This document shows positions 8,219 through 19,817 of a stretch of 64,000 bases of DNA, piece after piece. Location: positions 62,001-126,000 of the IMG/VR virus record IMGVR_UViG_3300037297_000066. One strand, 5' to 3'. The stretch's first letter is position 1. Each line of letters starts with the position of its first letter. The notes beneath the pieces were generated by a model. That model was not told where the DNA came from, made no database searches, and worked only from the letters and a program-made list of their open reading frames with translations. The translations under genes and the position numbers were made by a program. The stretch comes from a virus.

Positions 8219-8977
8219 CTAACGGTACTCTTCTCCATGGATGCTGAGATTCCGAACCCACCGGAGATTAACAGCAGCCTGAGGTTGAGGAGACTCCAAC
8301 TCACGGGAGCGACCCAGTATGTAGCTACCAGCATCTGAACCGTTTCGGAACCCGTTTAAGGCCACCTCTACTTCCTGATGGATGCTCTGAATGGTCCTAC
8401 GATTTCCGTTGAGGAGAACGGTTACCCTCCAAGGCATCGAATCAAGTGTCACATTCCCGGTCGTCACTCGAACAGCACTAGGACGCAAACACCTCAAGAA
8501 GTTGGTTGCCGCATTGTTCCAAGGGGTGCCCCACAGTTCTTGCAGCACAGGTAGACTGAACCACCCAAAAGAATGGTCTCGGGTTTCGTAATCAACCCCG
8601 TGACTAGAGATGTAAGAGTCGGCTACGTCGGTCGCCTCTCGTTGTGTTCTCAGAGCCGCTAGGTTCTCTGGAGAATCTCTTTCCGCAAGCTCTTCTGGAG
8701 TCCTCTCGTAGAAACGCAACCCTATCGGTTGCCGGACTTCATCCGCAGGCAATACCGTGAGCTCAGTCCGAACCGGAAGTTTGTTGAGGTCCGGAAGCTC
8801 TTCTTGCTTCGGACTTCCCTGTATGATGAGCCCTCCCCCCACCACTTGTTCTTTTGGGAACCGATCTAGGTGAATGAGGGTAGCCTCTTCCTCCATCTCT
8901 TCCAGTGAAGGATTTTCCGGACGAGGATTCACCTCTTCCCAGGCAGCTTCGATGGGTTCACGGCTGTCGTCAGTCAT
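8219..8977 (-). CDS. Unknown acidic protein in the envelope operon
   Basis: The ATG at 8977 overlaps the stop of the GT51 gene by 8 bp. The 252 residues start with an acidic, Pro-rich, probably disordered region (1-75), then a mixed alpha/beta part containing MPWRVTVLLNGNRRT. No transmembrane helix and no WER tail is seen; the end is NLSIHGEEYR. I recognise no family. Because it is embedded between membrane proteins it may be a cytoplasmic partner of them. Confidence 0.7.
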   Translation of the reverse strand: MTDDSREPIEAAWEEVNPRPENPSLEEMEEEATLIHLDRFPKEQVVGGGLIIQGSPKQEELPDLNKLPVRTELTVLPADEVRQPIGLRFYERTPEELAERDSPENLAALRTQREATDVADSYISSHGVDYETRDHSFGWFSLPVLQELWGTPWNNAATNFLRCLRPSAVRVTTGNVTLDSMPWRVTVLLNGNRRTIQSIHQEVEVALNGFRNGSDAGSYILGRSRELESPQPQAAVNLRWVRNLSIHGEEYR

Positions 8978-10676
8978 TGACTTCCCATCCTTCTCCACTG
9001 ACGGACTCAGGATCCGCTATCTGGGACAGTACGTTGTCTGGCAGGTAACCTGTACCAACTAAACGCCGAATGAAATTGCGGGTTCGCTTGAGATTCTCGT
9101 CCGGTGGAGCTGCTCGTTTCGGACGAGGCAGTATCCGGGCCAAATAGAATGCTTCATCCATAGCCAGTCGGGAAGCGGGCTTCTGGAAGTAGTGTCTTGC
9201 TGCCGCTCCTATCCCATACAGGTCTGGACCGAACTCGATGACGTTGAGGTACAGCTCCATGATCTGGGCCTTGGACAGACACCCCTCCAACCAGCGAGAC
9301 AAGATCACCTCCCGGGCTTTTCGGTCTAAGGTCCGGAATCTTTGCAGCCAAAGATTCTTGGCCAATTGCATAGTGATGGTGGAGCCCCCACGAACGAAAC
9401 GACCCTGTTCTAAGTTGGACTTAAGAGAGTTGAACAGGGCTTGCTTGAGGTAGCCCCGATGTCGCTTGAACCCAGGGTCCTCTAGGAGGGTGAAAGCGTC
9501 CGGTACATGTACCGGCAAGTCGGCAATCGATACCCAGTTAGCTGTGGTGGGCCCTGATTCTCGTTCGAAGGGGACGTTGTCTCGGTCGTAGGCAAAATAG
9601 GTGAACTTGCCACGCTTCAACTGAGCAATGAGAGGGTCGGAACAATCCAATTTGCACGTGTTATGGATCTTGAGCTTGGGTTTGGGTCGAATGCGGACTT
9701 CGAACCCGAGGGTGCCCGAGATGTTCTCCAGTTGTAGATCTGCAAAGGGTTTCCCAGGGATAGCTTCCCACCAGGCTCTGCAAGAAGCCTCGGCTCCCAC
9801 CAGATGCCAGTCGGAGGGGGTGACCTTGATGGTGACTTCCCCGCCTTGAGTCACCGTTACAGGCAAGGACATCTCCTGCTTCAGAAGGTAGCCCAAGGGA
9901 ACCTCCACCACGAGATCCGGTACCTCAGCAGGGCCTCCCCCTGGTTTCTTGAGCCAAGGGTGGCTGGTGGCAAGCTTCCGAACGGTTACCTGTACGGTCT
10001 TTGGAAGCAGGGACGCTCGCACGGTTTCAAGCCGAACCATGTCGTCCCCGAGCTCTACAACCTCTGCTTCAAGCCACTTCTCCTCGAAGCTGGCTCGCAG
10101 GTTCTCCAAACGAAGGGGTTCCTCGTCCTTCAAACCAGGGATTTGAATAGGGATTGGAACCGTAGTCTCAAGTCGTTCGGTGGTCACGGTCTTCGAGTGC
10201 ACCATGACACAAGCCGAGTGCACGGAGCTCTTCAAGCCCTTGTAGACTAAATCCCCCTTGGAACTACAGGCAAAACCTTCCTTGTAAGACACGTCTTCGA
10301 AGTTCCCGTTGAACCCCTCCTTCGACACTGTCACGTGTAGGCCGTTGACTACGATGCTCCGACCCGAGCTCCCTGTTCCCTTGGACTGAGGACGCTTGAA
10401 GGAATCAAGGTCCACAGTCACAGTTCCCCCTTCAATGAGGACCTGGTCGAAGTCTACCGTGATGCGTGTCAAGGTCGCCAGGAGGCCCTCACGCTCGACA
10501 ATCACCTTCTTGAACAGCAGCCGCCCCCACTCCAGCTCAACCTTATCGATGGATCGAACGTCAGGGTAACGATCTTCGACGTACTTCACGATCAACGAGG
10601 GCGCCAACAGGTAGACTGCCAACGACAAGAGAAACAGCGCTCCTAGTCCCCCAACCAGACGTTTGCACCAAGTCAT
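8970..10676 (-). CDS. GT51 peptidoglycan glycosyltransferase with AsmA-like N-terminal region
   Basis: The 568-residue protein polymerises lipid II into glycan strands if active. Residues 8-28 form a membrane anchor; residues 35-340 are beta-rich and look like an AsmA-type repeat region. Residues 395-520 carry the glycosyltransferase-51 motifs: LLEDPGFKRHRG (catalytic Glu at 399), GGSTITMQLAKN (430-441), RKAREVILSRWLE, AQIMELYLN, and YGIGAAARHYFQK. No transpeptidase domain follows, so it is a monofunctional enzyme with an unusual N-terminal half. All key motifs are intact. It lies in an operon with tail-bearing membrane proteins on both sides. Confidence 0.88.
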   Translation of the reverse strand: MTWCKRLVGGLGALFLLSLAVYLLAPSLIVKYVEDRYPDVRSIDKVELEWGRLLFKKVIVEREGLLATLTRITVDFDQVLIEGGTVTVDLDSFKRPQSKGTGSSGRSIVVNGLHVTVSKEGFNGNFEDVSYKEGFACSSKGDLVYKGLKSSVHSACVMVHSKTVTTERLETTVPIPIQIPGLKDEEPLRLENLRASFEEKWLEAEVVELGDDMVRLETVRASLLPKTVQVTVRKLATSHPWLKKPGGGPAEVPDLVVEVPLGYLLKQEMSLPVTVTQGGEVTIKVTPSDWHLVGAEASCRAWWEAIPGKPFADLQLENISGTLGFEVRIRPKPKLKIHNTCKLDCSDPLIAQLKRGKFTYFAYDRDNVPFERESGPTTANWVSIADLPVHVPDAFTLLEDPGFKRHRGYLKQALFNSLKSNLEQGRFVRGGSTITMQLAKNLWLQRFRTLDRKAREVILSRWLEGCLSKAQIMELYLNVIEFGPDLYGIGAAARHYFQKPASRLAMDEAFYLARILPRPKRAAPPDENLKRTRNFIRRLVGTGYLPDNVLSQIADPESVSGEGWEVND

Positions 10677-14136: not shown

Positions 14137-14835
14137 GTGGCAAGCAAGAAAAGTGCCCAGAAGTTCGAGAATGCTTCACAGCTCATTCAGCGGGCTGTGG
14201 AGCTCCGATACTTCAGTGAAAAGAGCCCGGCTATCCCTTACCACTGGGTTCGGGGATCGAACCCGTTGATCGTGATCGTGGGGGACAACGCCGGAGGCAA
14301 ATCCTTCGTTCGTAGGATATTCAACGCCCTCTGCCAGAAGAACCACATCGAGTTCATGGGGATCTCGATGGAAGGCCGGCAAGGCGTCTCAATGGCTCCT
14401 TGGCTCGCTTTGGTCTACGGGGACGAGTCCTACCAGAGCACGGGTCAACTCTCCGTGAGCACCGTTCTGGGGGGAATCAAGACCTGTACCAGTCGATGCG
14501 AGGAGAGAAAACCTCACGTCATCTTCTGGGACGAGCCTGACCTGGGCCTGAGTGAATCCTGGGCGGCAGGGGTCGGTGTGGCCATTCGAGATCTGACCCA
14601 ACAGGTGACTTCCTCGACCAGGGCCATTTGTGTGGTGACCCATAGCCGGCCCTTGGTCCGGGAATTGTTGCCAGTCAACCCTCACTACCTGCACGTGGGA
14701 TCGGACAAGGCTCCTGCCACCCTGAAAGAGTGGCTCACTCGAAAGGTACGCCCCCGAAAAATCGAAACTCTGGGGAAGTTGTCTCACCAACGGTTCACCA
14801 AAATCAGGAAGATCCTGAAGGAATGTGAGTCCTGA
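14137..14835 (+). CDS. ABC/OLD-type P-loop ATPase
   Basis: The 232-residue protein has a Walker A motif GDNAGGKS (residues 49-56), a Walker B VIFWDEPDLGLS (D132, E133) and a switch histidine in VVTHSRP (H169). These match the ABC-ATPase clan as seen in RecF/OLD/SMC-type single-domain ATPases. The signature loop is not obvious (possibly LSVSTVLGG, 105-113). It probably forms an ATP-driven dimer. The GTG start abuts the previous stop, and the stop overlaps the next start as TGATG. Substrate unknown; the operon then encodes a radical SAM enzyme. Confidence 0.8.
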   Translation: MASKKSAQKFENASQLIQRAVELRYFSEKSPAIPYHWVRGSNPLIVIVGDNAGGKSFVRRIFNALCQKNHIEFMGISMEGRQGVSMAPWLALVYGDESYQSTGQLSVSTVLGGIKTCTSRCEERKPHVIFWDEPDLGLSESWAAGVGVAIRDLTQQVTSSTRAICVVTHSRPLVRELLPVNPHYLHVGSDKAPATLKEWLTRKVRPRKIETLGKLSHQRFTKIRKILKECES

Positions 14836-15037: not shown

Positions 15038-16243
15038 ATGCGCAACATGCGAATGAGAATCAAGGGAGCGGATGGACGGTTCAAGACCGTTTACGAATCT
15101 CACTTCGATCCTAAAACGGGCAACCTTGTTCGCAGGGTTTGGGAACTTCGCAACAGGGATCGGTTCTCGTTAATCGAAGAGGATGAAGACCTGTGCACCC
15201 AGTTTCGCTCACAATTCCCTCACAGGCATAGGAGTTTTTGCTCCCCCTCCCCGGAGATGGTGGACATCTCCATCACGAACCAATGCAACTTCGAATGCCC
15301 TTACTGCTACCAGTGCAGCACCAAGGATGCTGAGCACGGGGAGCACAACCTGGTAGAGAAGGTGATCAAGGGATTCCAACACCCTCCCTACCAGATTGCC
15401 ATCGGGGGCGGAGAACCTACCCTCCACCCAGATCTGCCAGACATGTTGCGAACCGCCCGGCGACTCAAGGTAGTTCCCAACTACACGACCAATGGCAGCT
15501 TCATGACTAGAGAATTGGTCGAAGCCACCAACAAGTACTGTGGCGGGGTAGCCATGACCTACCACCCCCACAAGGGTATTGCCTGGTTTCGGAAGCACTA
15601 TCTCCGGCTGAAGAACAGTCTCACTTGCCAAGTCAACGTCCACCTCATTCTCAAGCGAGGAATTCTTCGAGATCTTCGAGCCTTGATGGGCCTCCAAAAA
15701 GAAGCGGGTCCCATCTCCCTGGTACTGCTCGCCTACGATCCCCAGGGACGAGGCACGATGAGCCAGCTTCCCAGTCGTAGCGACTTCAACGACCGGCTAC
15801 CCCAACTGCTGATCACTGCCCAAAACCAGGGAATGCGTGTCGCCTTCTCTGAGGGTCTCCTGCCTTACTTCCTCAGCCGCCCCCAAATCGCTGCCAACGC
15901 TGGACTAGGAACCCGGTCAGAGGGTCTGTTCAGCTGCTACGTCAACTCCCAGGGGCAGATGTTCGAAAGCAGCTTCGGGGCTGCTCCATGTGCAGGAGAC
16001 TTCCAAAAACCAACGGTTTTCGAGAATACTTCCCAAGAGCTCTGGGAGAATTTGTATGTGGGGTACAAACCTGACTTTCCTCCATGCTCTACCTGCAAAG
16101 GCAAAAGTCGGTGTGCACCTCGGGCGGTTACCTTTGGCTACCTGCTGTGTGCCCACTCAGAGATCCACAAGCTCCCTCATTGTGAACGCCCTGCCGAGGG
16201 AGTTAAGACCGCCTTCGAGAGACTTTTGGAGGAAGACGACTGA
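15038..16243 (+). CDS. Radical SAM enzyme with extra C-terminal cysteines and WER-like tail
   Basis: The 401-residue protein has the CX3CX2C cluster motif at C83, C87 and C90 (QCNFECPYC), and the GGGEPT SAM-binding motif at 123-128. A C-terminal region with several further cysteines (CSTCKGKSRC and others near 350-385) recalls SPASM or twitch auxiliary iron-sulfur domains of peptide-modifying maturases. Such enzymes use S-adenosylmethionine to generate a radical; the substrate is unknown. It ends VKTAFERLLEEDD, the WER tail with Phe in the Trp place. The next gene overlaps its stop and encodes a protein with a GFVTNSSS motif, a candidate substrate. Confidence 0.85.
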   Translation: MRNMRMRIKGADGRFKTVYESHFDPKTGNLVRRVWELRNRDRFSLIEEDEDLCTQFRSQFPHRHRSFCSPSPEMVDISITNQCNFECPYCYQCSTKDAEHGEHNLVEKVIKGFQHPPYQIAIGGGEPTLHPDLPDMLRTARRLKVVPNYTTNGSFMTRELVEATNKYCGGVAMTYHPHKGIAWFRKHYLRLKNSLTCQVNVHLILKRGILRDLRALMGLQKEAGPISLVLLAYDPQGRGTMSQLPSRSDFNDRLPQLLITAQNQGMRVAFSEGLLPYFLSRPQIAANAGLGTRSEGLFSCYVNSQGQMFESSFGAAPCAGDFQKPTVFENTSQELWENLYVGYKPDFPPCSTCKGKSRCAPRAVTFGYLLCAHSEIHKLPHCERPAEGVKTAFERLLEEDD

Positions 16244-16647
16244 TGCCCTACCAAGTTAGCGCCACTATTGGGTTCGTGACCAACTCCAGTTCCGCCATCA
16301 TGTTGTTCCCACCGGAACTGCTGAAGCACCCCGAGGTCAAAGCTTTTCTCGAAGCCTTCGAAATTGGGGAAGGTTTCGTAGGGGCCGACCTCTGGCATCG
16401 GGGCAGGTGCGGAACCATAGCCATTAGCCCGGCTCAAAAACGATTGGCCAAGACGCAACTCAAGCCAGACGTGGTTGACGAAGACACCTACACTGACAGC
16501 CGGGTTCCCGACTTCGATCCTGAAAGTGACGAAGTCTTGGTCATTTTCGGGGACGAATACAACACGGCCGCTTCAGAAATCGGAAGGTTTCTTCGTCTAG
16601 TAGCCGAGGAAGCTGGGATACCCTACTCCAGCAACGAGTACAACTAA
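16243..16647 (+). CDS. GFVTNSSS-motif protein next to the radical SAM enzyme
   Basis: The 134 residues begin MPYQVSATIGFVTNSSSAIM. A GFV[ST]NSSS segment close to the N-terminus occurs, from memory, in many otherwise unrelated bacterial and phage proteins of unknown function. The rest is an alpha/beta domain with an acidic middle (VDEDTYTDSRVPDFDPESDE). The TGATG overlap with the radical SAM gene makes stoichiometric co-translation likely, so the Ser/Asn-rich segment may be a modification site. That link is inferred from adjacency only. Confidence 0.7.
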   Translation: MPYQVSATIGFVTNSSSAIMLFPPELLKHPEVKAFLEAFEIGEGFVGADLWHRGRCGTIAISPAQKRLAKTQLKPDVVDEDTYTDSRVPDFDPESDEVLVIFGDEYNTAASEIGRFLRLVAEEAGIPYSSNEYN

Positions 16648-17877: not shown

Positions 17878-19224
17878 ATGCCCGCTCCTTCCTACCCCTA
17901 CCCCACGGACCAGTACGAGCCAACCCGGCCCGAGCTCTGGAGGGATGTGCTGGAGGTGGCAACAGGGAGGCGCCGAGAACTAAGAATCGGAGATCGTACC
18001 ATTCACTCCCCTAATGAGGGGCAGGGATTCGACAACATGCCTCACAACCCCAATGGCATTGCCTGGGCCGTGAAGCAGTACAATGGGTTCATGGGCGGTT
18101 GGCGTAAGAAGGAAGCAACGATGCCAGACACGGACACCTCCGACAACCCGATCAAACAGCCAGAGTTCACGGTCTTCCAACGTCAATCCCTGCAGAGGAT
18201 GGGTTTAGGAGGAGTGGTTGTTACCGATCACTTCGAGACCCATTGCCAAATGCAAGAGCTGCAAGCTCAAAGACTCGTGATGGGGTCAGCCGGCAAGAAG
18301 CCTGGTCAGTATTTCTGGAGTCTAACAGAGGCAGGTCAACGTCGAGTCACAGCAGCCCTCGGGGAAGACCTGAAGAGCCGAGTAGAAACCTTGATGCAGG
18401 CTTCTGACGAAGACGCCAAGAAAATGTCTCGGGACCTGGCCAAGTGGTTCGGAGAGAACTTCCAGCGGGTTCGGTCGGCCAAGACCCCTCGGGGCCAGAA
18501 ACGTGTCAAAGAGGAGGCCCAGCGTCTCTTGGATGTGTTGGAACTGATGGGAAACCCGGGGGGCCGAGTCACTCCAGGGGGAACCCAATCAGTGGTCAAA
18601 CAAGTCTGGGATCGCCTGGAACCCGACTTAGGGAACCTGGTGAAGTTCTTCACCTCGGAAGGGGACTTGTCCCGAGGCAAGCAAGAAGCTGTCACGGAAC
18701 TGAAGCTGTCTCACGCTACCTATCAGAACCGAGCCAACATCAGCGAGGCCAACTTCCGCAAGTACGCCGAAGCCGTGGACAAGGTCTTCGGATCCCTTAA
18801 GGGTTGGAGGAAGAAGGCTCTAGCCGGTAATCTCAAGGTAGCCTTCGTGGGACGAGGCGAAATGAAGCCTCAAGGCAAGTACGTCCGAGCCAAGGACGAA
18901 ATGCTGGTTCGGGCGACCCCCCAAGTCCTGAAGCGCTCTGCCGGCTACGGGAGCTTGGAATACATCCTGATCCACGAGCTGGGACACCGGTACGAGGAAA
19001 AGAACAAGCTCCCCACGGACTTCGACCGAGACGTGACCTGGAGGACCACCCGCTACAGCTGGACGGAGGGGGAAGCCTTTGCCGAGCTCTTTGCCCTCAG
19101 CCAGTTCAAATTGACCGGCAACTGGGATGCCAAGAAGGTCGAGAAGTTCGAGGACCTGATGTCTGGCAAGACCAAAGCAGCAGCTTTTCGAGTCCTCCAG
19201 CGCTACCAGCAGAGGGAAGCATGA
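17878..19224 (+). CDS. Putative zinc metallopeptidase with long N-terminal region
   Basis: The 448-residue protein carries a gluzincin-like motif HELGH at 366-370 (YILIHELGHRYEEK). About 30 residues later comes EGEAFAELFA, where a Glu could be the third zinc ligand. Residues 70-130 resemble a short DNA-binding-like helical part (FQRQSLQRMGLGGVVVTDHF), and residues 160-300 are helical. The location at the end of a run of unknown genes gives no target; it could be a virion-maturation or anti-host protease. Catalytic residues are intact by eye. Confidence 0.7.
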   Translation: MPAPSYPYPTDQYEPTRPELWRDVLEVATGRRRELRIGDRTIHSPNEGQGFDNMPHNPNGIAWAVKQYNGFMGGWRKKEATMPDTDTSDNPIKQPEFTVFQRQSLQRMGLGGVVVTDHFETHCQMQELQAQRLVMGSAGKKPGQYFWSLTEAGQRRVTAALGEDLKSRVETLMQASDEDAKKMSRDLAKWFGENFQRVRSAKTPRGQKRVKEEAQRLLDVLELMGNPGGRVTPGGTQSVVKQVWDRLEPDLGNLVKFFTSEGDLSRGKQEAVTELKLSHATYQNRANISEANFRKYAEAVDKVFGSLKGWRKKALAGNLKVAFVGRGEMKPQGKYVRAKDEMLVRATPQVLKRSAGYGSLEYILIHELGHRYEEKNKLPTDFDRDVTWRTTRYSWTEGEAFAELFALSQFKLTGNWDAKKVEKFEDLMSGKTKAAAFRVLQRYQQREA

Positions 19225-19817
19225 CCGTTCTGGTACTCCAGCCTCCACCGAGGGAGGCCCTTCAGTTGCGCCGGCTGAAAGTTCCAGGAGACAGAACCAT
19301 CCCCGGAACCCAGCACATCACCGTGTTCCATTTCGGGAAAGACGTGCCCAAGGGGATGCTGGACAAGATCCTTAAGAGCACCTACGAGGTGGCCGAACAA
19401 GTCCAACCCTTCTCGGTGTCGCTTCGGCAGATCTCCAGCTTACCCCGCCACCCGGACAAGGGAACCATCCCTGTGGTCTGTCCCGTGGAAGGCTCCGAGC
19501 TCCAGGATCTGTGGAAACGGCTCAAGAAGGTCTACGATCGAGACAAGGTGGAGTACAGCGGTAAATTCCCCACCTACAAGCCTCACACGACACTATCCTA
19601 CCTAGGAGAAGATGAAGAGGCGCCCCCTGACAGGCCGCTGCCCGAACCTCTCTCCTGGGACGTTTCCCAGCTCGTGTTATGGGGAGGGGACAAGGAAAAC
19701 GCTATTCTGGAGACCACCTTCCCCTTGGGGAAGAAGATGGCGACGATCCAGAAGGTAGCTACCCGGAGTCTTTGGAGACGATTTCCGAGTGGGGCTTTAC
19801 CTTGGGAATTGGAATAG
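19221..19817 (+). CDS. 2H phosphoesterase (LigT / 2'-5' RNA ligase-like)
   Basis: The 198-residue protein has the paired HxT motifs that define the 2H superfamily: H32-I-T34 in QHITVFHFG and H122-T-T124 in HTTLSYLG, at the expected separation. Members hydrolyse 2'-5' or cyclic phosphodiester bonds in RNA or cyclic oligonucleotides, and some phage members destroy defence second messengers; which applies here is unknown. The ATG overlaps the preceding stop as ATGA. The last 20 codons overlap a convergent gene. Confidence 0.8.
   Translation: MTVLVLQPPPREALQLRRLKVPGDRTIPGTQHITVFHFGKDVPKGMLDKILKSTYEVAEQVQPFSVSLRQISSLPRHPDKGTIPVVCPVEGSELQDLWKRLKKVYDRDKVEYSGKFPTYKPHTTLSYLGEDEEAPPDRPLPEPLSWDVSQLVLWGGDKENAILETTFPLGKKMATIQKVATRSLWRRFPSGALPWELE

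Follow-up and report, generated by a model that had tools for sequence, protein, structure and literature searches.

The closest described systems are the RiPP pairs SuiB-SuiA, SkfB-SkfA and EpeE-EpeX, in which a small partner gene stands beside a radical-SAM gene and the partner has a conserved N-terminal segment; both features recur at the locus described here, and these pairs also supply the best structural matches of its enzyme family. The locus lies in a 64,000-nucleotide stretch (the window) comprising bases 62001-126000 of a 437,331-base IMG/VR virus record, a 437-kb phage, and consists of a radical-SAM enzyme gene followed by the gene of a protein with an N-terminal [ST]NSSS tag. Our preferred reading, to which we give a probability of about 0.6, is a phage-borne enzyme-substrate system in which the radical-SAM enzyme modifies this tag in trans.

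The enzyme-tag pair in the window

Both open-reading frames that the first-pass annotation had proposed, a radical-SAM gene overlapping a GFVTNSSS gene, are present where it had placed them, and the enzyme matches PF04055 over cut-off (Table 1). The TGA stop of the enzyme gene (16241-16243) gives its A to the ATG of the GFVTNSSS open-reading frame (TGATG), and the open-reading frame after the tag gene likewise begins by a one-base overlap (TAATG, 16647). With its CX3CX2C motif and the partial TIM barrel of PF04055 the enzyme belongs to the radical SAM superfamily; it is the single PF04055 gene over cut-off in the whole 437,331-base record, which also contains one true tag gene. The pattern also matched GFASNRTS at record position 130698, but this is without NSSS and was rejected as a tag. 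The motif [ST]NSSS occurs within the first 30 residues of none of the 344 other open-reading frames of the window, and of none of 1642 open-reading frames lying at least 3 kb from a tag gene in related loci. Searches of Pfam, NCBIfam, PHROG and PDB assign the tag protein to no family. Comparison with a second jumbo phage (G001) showed that, of the neighbourhood genes, the enzyme and tag gene alone are conserved, with 32% identity for the enzyme and 44% for the tag protein.

Table 1. Positions of the enzyme-tag pair, its motifs and the upstream ATPase gene in the window
Feature	Position	Strand	Evidence and remarks
AAA_21/OLD-like ATPase	14137-14835	+	weak scores; upstream of the pair
Radical-SAM enzyme, 401 aa	15038..16243	+	PF04055, E 1.1e-10, over cut-off
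CX3CX2C motif (C83-C90), radical-SAM cluster	15284..15307	+	sequence motif
C-terminal CX2CX5CX11C (C350, C353, C359, C371), probable auxiliary Fe-S site	16085..16150	+	spacing near-identical in G001
Tag protein, 134 aa	16243..16647	+	one-base overlap with enzyme gene; N-terminus MPYQVSATIGFVTNSSS
N-terminal tag GFVTNSSS	16270..16293 (record position 78270)	+	exact pattern position; class comparison

An ABC-type ATPase gene had also been noted just upstream; an ATPase gene does lie there, with a weak AAA_21/OLD-like assignment, but it is not conserved with the pair in the comparison with G001. No neighbour family other than the tag proteins was common to more than 7 of 99 loci (among the matches listed), so there is no constant third component, and the ATPase was dropped as a candidate for one. 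The same ATPase is also weakly similar to AriA of the PARIS system (E 3e-7 over 52 residues).

Other genes around the pair were recorded in passing. A 448-aa protein at 17878-19224 (+) has a HELGH zinc-protease-like motif and no Pfam family, and a 2'-5' RNA ligase/LigT phosphoesterase is encoded at 19221-19817 (+), about 3 kb downstream of the pair. In Salmonella phage Arash a protein annotated 'RNA ligase' lies three genes past the fused enzyme described below (locus L003, 6404-6856), which is probably coincidence. On the opposite strand, the C-terminal half of a 568-aa protein (8970-10676, -) contains, as judged by eye, RGGSTITMQLAKNLWL, which we take to be typical of GT51 peptidoglycan transglycosylases; such a protein would presumably be unusual for a phage.

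Association of enzyme and tag in phages and plasmids

IMG/VR was scanned with DNA patterns for three tag classes, GFVSNSSSSSF, GVFETNSSSTHS and GFATNSSSSHS. The GFVSNSSS scan gave 16 matches, of which 10 proved to be true tag genes, many standing in tandem arrays of 2-4 genes, and a family enzyme adjoins these tags in eight records (G001, G002, G004, G006, G007, G008, G009 and G010); on a 55-kb fragment (G003) two tag genes occur with no enzyme. The GVFETNSSSxH scan returned at least 120 loci and the GFATNSSSSH scan 17. Across 153 pooled loci (1.29 Mb, among the matches listed), whose boundaries are arbitrary and some of which are near-copies (for example L123, L133 and L143), 106 radical-SAM open-reading frames match the enzyme-family HMM, 16 of them as tag-enzyme fusions. 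At the listed loci, all 90 stand-alone enzymes share the strand of their nearest tag open-reading frame, with a median gap of 16.5 bp; for 61 the distance is no more than 100 bp, for 84 no more than 1 kb. Gene order goes either way (71 enzymes upstream, 19 downstream), and with the fusions included 105 of the 106 family enzymes lie within 2 kb of a tag open-reading frame, a single one being farther off. Among 33 tag-bearing records with no enzyme in the fetched flank, 24 hold a family enzyme elsewhere in the record and 9 have none anywhere in the record, several of these being fragments; of the five records that entered via a chance pattern match, one holds a family enzyme. Each enzyme locus listed encodes between 1 and 6 tagged proteins (mean 1.87), and tag genes can be scattered on contigs with a single enzyme, as at L112, L157 and L124 on IMGVR_UViG_3300026549_000001. 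On a tree of 98 enzyme sequences (95 different) tag class changes 7 times, against a shuffled mean of 31.2; tag class follows enzyme clade.

Named phages and plasmids repeat the association. The best tblastn match of the window enzyme among 50,697 phage records was in Salmonella phage Arash, in which gp146 is a single polypeptide of MYLTQIRYGFATNSSSSHS... followed by a radical-SAM domain. In the Slopekvirus and Pseudotevenvirus phages (KP15, KP27, RB43 and others) the enzyme is found at ~90 kb and two GFVSNSSSSSF genes at ~67-72 kb. Within the phage collection the enzyme query finds 173 records and the pooled GFVSNSSS proteins find 175, and the near-identical enzyme/tag tallies by organism (Enterobacter 20/20, Cronobacter 14/14, Citrobacter 11/11, Escherichia 9/9, Klebsiella 110/115) amount to co-occurrence inside one clade, because Slopekvirus and Pseudotevenvirus are closely related. 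More distant examples are Prevotella Lak-A2, where five tandem GVFETNSSS-type genes come after the enzyme; Microcystis phage LMM01, where gp130 (GVFETNSSSTHS) lies beside the 'Fe-S oxidoreductase' gp128; Rhodothermus phage RM378, with the variant tag GLSTNSSSSHS in p106 and the enzyme as p108; and Thermus phage phiYS40, in which gp162, with the variant tag SMTNSSSAS, overlaps the enzyme gp161. On plasmids, fusions occur in Deferribacter pDF308 (NNTNSSSSHC) and Methylobacterium pVL1_2 (HATNSSSSHS), and in Agrobacterium pAt a MKLKMDFVSNSSSTSF gene stands immediately before the enzyme gene. Going from enzyme to tag, all nine lineages inspected (Slopekvirus/RB43, Arash, Lak, LMM01, RM378, phiYS40, pDF308, pVL1_2 and pAt) carry a tag gene, and the core common to every tag class is [ST]-N-S-S-S and nothing more.

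The first-pass annotation had named a lack of association between such tag genes and radical-SAM genes elsewhere as what would count against its pairing. The neighbour survey instead shows a clear association across IMG/VR, phages and plasmids, and we assert the pairing as real. Adjacency, fusion, persistence in unrelated replicons where the other neighbours have changed and matching of tag class to enzyme clade together make it, on this sequence evidence, near certain that enzyme and tag protein are a functional pair.

GFVSNSSS-like proteins had been described as widespread; the occurrences we see are in phages and a few plasmids, with none in the chromosomes sampled. The FETNSSSxH form was found in 0 of 391 genomes of one class and 0 of 119 of another, and a codon-limited scan of 84,980 species for GFVSNSSSxxF gave three chance matches and no true tag. 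The tag is found in phage records and a few plasmids, with no matches in the sampled chromosomes, a result that covers those genomes and does not extend to all chromosomes; some IMG/VR entries may moreover be proviruses of isolate genomes. Searching IMG/VR directly by homology, with the window proteins and Arash gp146 as queries, gave no matches, nor did the 20-aa tag as a tblastn or phmmer query, the tag being of low complexity.

Several loci showed features of their own. In Klebsiella phage Kpn35c1 (OK631813.1; L217 1-674, L216 6401-6931) the enzyme gene is split in two frames and the stretch read contains just one of the usual two tag genes, possibly a single case of joint decay of enzyme and tag gene. 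On pAt of Agrobacterium tumefaciens Ach5 (NZ_CP011248.1, L215 1514-5966) the pair follows, on the same strand, an 888-aa SMEK-NACHT protein (PF21941) that resembles short-Argonaute-associated REase and Avs2 NTPase models, and the locus is possibly a defence module using a phage-like pair. A 193-kb phage contig (IMGVR_UViG_3300033153_012477; G008:C1:18000-98000, L060, L061) has 11 radical-SAM genes, among them 8 that lie at 62-83 kb, and several GFVSNSSS genes stand beside them; eight radical-SAM genes have been reported for a jumbo phage (PMC12390700). Family radical-SAM genes in six records (G412, G425, G431, G437, G438 and G439) contain a single in-frame TAG, TGA or TAA, and may come from recoded phages or reflect sequence errors. 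A family enzyme in a 508-kb record reached by a chance pattern match (IMGVR_UViG_3300049793_000366; G406:C1:441290-442141) has two in-frame stops.

Enzyme, tag and the competing readings

The radical-SAM cysteines are intact: C83, C87 and C90, together with P131 and T150, are invariant among 26 family members, and the family keeps CX3CX2C, the first spacing being longer in some GFVSNSSS-class members, as well as a conserved N-terminal hairpin region near D-x-x-[DT]-G-x-[KL]-x-R. Its members match phrog_16999 ('Fe-S oxidoreductase') and phrog_13987 ('radical SAM domain-containing protein'). The first-pass annotation invoked auxiliary-cluster maturases, and auxiliary-cluster cysteines are present in some branches only. 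C-terminal cysteines are present in the window enzyme (300, 318, 350, 353, 359, 371 and 382 in its C-terminal half), in its G001 counterpart (C417, C420, C426 and C437) and in the RB43 and Agrobacterium branches, but the set is not constant; the C-terminal CX2C is kept in 0 of 72 GVFETNSSS-class enzymes (among the matches listed) and 1 of 15 fused enzymes. Pfam SPASM (PF13186) has no match in the window enzyme and is above cut-off in the RB43 and Agrobacterium relatives. Foldseek with an AF2 model of the fusion (of moderate confidence, pLDDT 70) gave the RiPP maturases SuiB and SkfB as its best six matches, followed by other RiPP maturases and then BlsE, viperin, MoaA, EpeE, TigE and PqqE. A PqqD/RRE domain had no Pfam match in the proteins searched.

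The partner had been pictured as a peptide substrate of the kind encoded beside such maturases; a short RiPP-like peptide is not what we find, as the tag instead stands in front of folded bodies of many kinds. In a set of 204 unique stand-alone tag proteins at the listed loci, N and the first two S are 100% conserved, the third S 98%, and R at position -4 of the tag 87%, with the core beginning near residue 11; these values are partly forced by the search patterns, and tandem neighbours outside the pattern constraint still keep [ST]NSS[ST]. The bodies behind the tag fall into 36 clusters (blastp, 1e-4). Partners are 34-296 aa long as read (some incomplete), with a median of 163 and the invariant segment at residues ~8-18, and include short (65-100 aa) and zinc-finger-like proteins. 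By hhalign (probability 99.4, E 6.6e-22), the domain of the largest body cluster (FGW...DH...GNDN) recurs as the N-terminal half of the fusions. An AF2 model of the tagged domain has a pLDDT of 91 overall and a mean of 52 over residues 1-10, with the tag preceding strand 1, and because confidence is low over the tag, it is probably an exposed, flexible end on a well-ordered body in the modelled family. Foldseek found no solved relative of this domain; 48 of 53 tag domains match phrog_28997 and GFVSNSSS N-termini match phrog_7397, both of unknown function.

Since one enzyme goes with several tagged proteins, whose bodies share the tag alone, the tag appears to be what the enzyme handles, which is why we favour modification of the tag in trans. 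The enzyme would recognise the flexible N-terminal [ST]NSSS of its partner and bind it in the active site, where the 5'-deoxyadenosyl radical would abstract a hydrogen and a residue in or beside the tag would be modified, the invariant [ST], N and S positions being the candidates. In trans, one enzyme would serve one to several tagged proteins; a fusion of tagged domain and enzyme is seen in the GFATNSSSSHS class and in the pDF308 and pVL1_2 proteins related to it. The putatively modified proteins would probably act in a step of host takeover or particle biology. A broader proposal, which we advance tentatively, is phage-wide tagging in which one radical-SAM enzyme would install a new backbone or side-chain modification at the N-terminal [ST]NSSS of many unrelated phage proteins, mostly free of auxiliary clusters, with the pair in some bacteria set beside a SMEK-NACHT guard-like protein (pAt), possibly as anti-phage bait.

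By analogy with the leader-guided maturases that head the structural matches, SuiB with its bound precursor SuiA among them, the tag might be a leader-like docking handle whilst the enzyme modifies residues in the partner body; a conserved N-terminal segment followed by variable C-terminal parts is, after all, the normal RiPP layout. However, 36 unrelated folded clusters at the listed loci offer no shared motif to modify, and the invariant residues sit in the tag, which is flexible in the model on a well-ordered body, so that we regard docking as doubtful, if the foremost of the alternatives. The tag protein could otherwise be a partner subunit (a peptide clamp, RRE-like, or for electron transfer) of an enzyme that acts on another, perhaps host, target. 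The fixed fusions speak for this, as in these the tag domain could be a subunit rather than a substrate, and the Foldseek alignment of the fusion to SuiB covers the greater part of either chain and takes in the RRE, at 7-9 angstrom rmsd and with poor quality in the RRE region; yet a subunit needs neither several differing versions per enzyme, short and zinc-finger-like ones included, nor genes far off from the enzyme, and we hold it to be improbable.

We consider it very improbable that the enzyme is of viperin or MoaA type, with a nucleotide or small molecule as its substrate and the tag protein in a regulatory role. The best NCBIfam and PADLOC matches of the enzyme are indeed prokaryotic viperins (56 and 59 bits) and both viperin and MoaA stand in the fold list, but only residues 75-169 are matched, ~95 around the cluster motif, and 56 bits is far under the 180-bit cut-off, on which grounds identity as a prokaryotic viperin was rejected; such an activity would also leave the tag and its many carriers unexplained. 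That the pairing is mere shared inheritance or phage gene clustering is barely credible: many contigs are related and some loci are near-copies, but phages of unrelated hosts and plasmids alike retain the pair, which occurs in both gene orders and as fusions and is kept where every other neighbour differs, as between the window and G001.

Comparison with known systems

Modification of the [ST]NSSS tag in trans, which we prefer, would place the pair among systems that work like enzyme-substrate maturation pairs, and it looks like an undescribed protein-modification system found across numerous large phages as well as a few plasmids. Neither Pfam nor NCBIfam has a family that covers the enzyme-tag system, and open-licence papers in PMC gave no relevant paper with the motif and no report of such a system; four PHROGs (phrog_28997, phrog_7397, phrog_16999 and phrog_13987) hold its members, and the enzyme-tag link is not recorded there. 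A recurrent, unexplained N-terminal motif of phage proteins is now tied to a specific enzyme family, and the function of NSSS can be tested in the cultivated phages RB43 (on E. coli), KP15, LMM01, RM378 and phiYS40. Should the tag prove to be modified, radical chemistry would serve phages to label groups of their own proteins, an unusual post-translational layer, and an enzyme that tolerates unrelated bodies behind so short a tag would have uses in protein engineering.

Prokaryotic viperin (pVip) shares sequence similarity around the CX3CX2C core, but the coverage is partial and far below cut-off, the C-terminal half is different and pVip has no known tag partner. The likeness to SPASM/Twitch enzymes is in the RB43 and Agrobacterium members above cut-off and in the CX2CX5CX11C kept by the window enzyme, which itself is without a Pfam SPASM match; unlike them, most family members are without auxiliary cysteines, which speaks against a chemistry reliant on an auxiliary cluster. 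Sactipeptides and ranthipeptides differ in that their Cys thioether donor is absent from the [ST]NSSS core in every tag class, which excludes thioethers within the tag core. As to triceptides (three-residue cyclophanes), in which the crosslinked triplet begins with an aromatic residue, F-x-[ST] is present in most tags but absent in phiYS40 (SMTNSSS), RM378 (LSTNSSS), pDF308 (NNTNSSS) and pVL1_2 (HATNSSS, with His instead), and the loss of Phe in these four lineages argues against a universal Phe cyclophane. Set against RiPP systems in general, a partner gene does lie beside the enzyme gene at the listed loci, as precursor and maturase genes do, but a short precursor of leader and variable core was looked for and not found, and because of this we do not file the system as a RiPP. 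Compared with SuiB-SuiA, SkfB-SkfA and EpeE-EpeX, the partners here are folded and varied, several per enzyme, phage-borne, with no clear RRE and no Cys in the tag core, and it is the conserved N-terminal segment that is the feature common to them.
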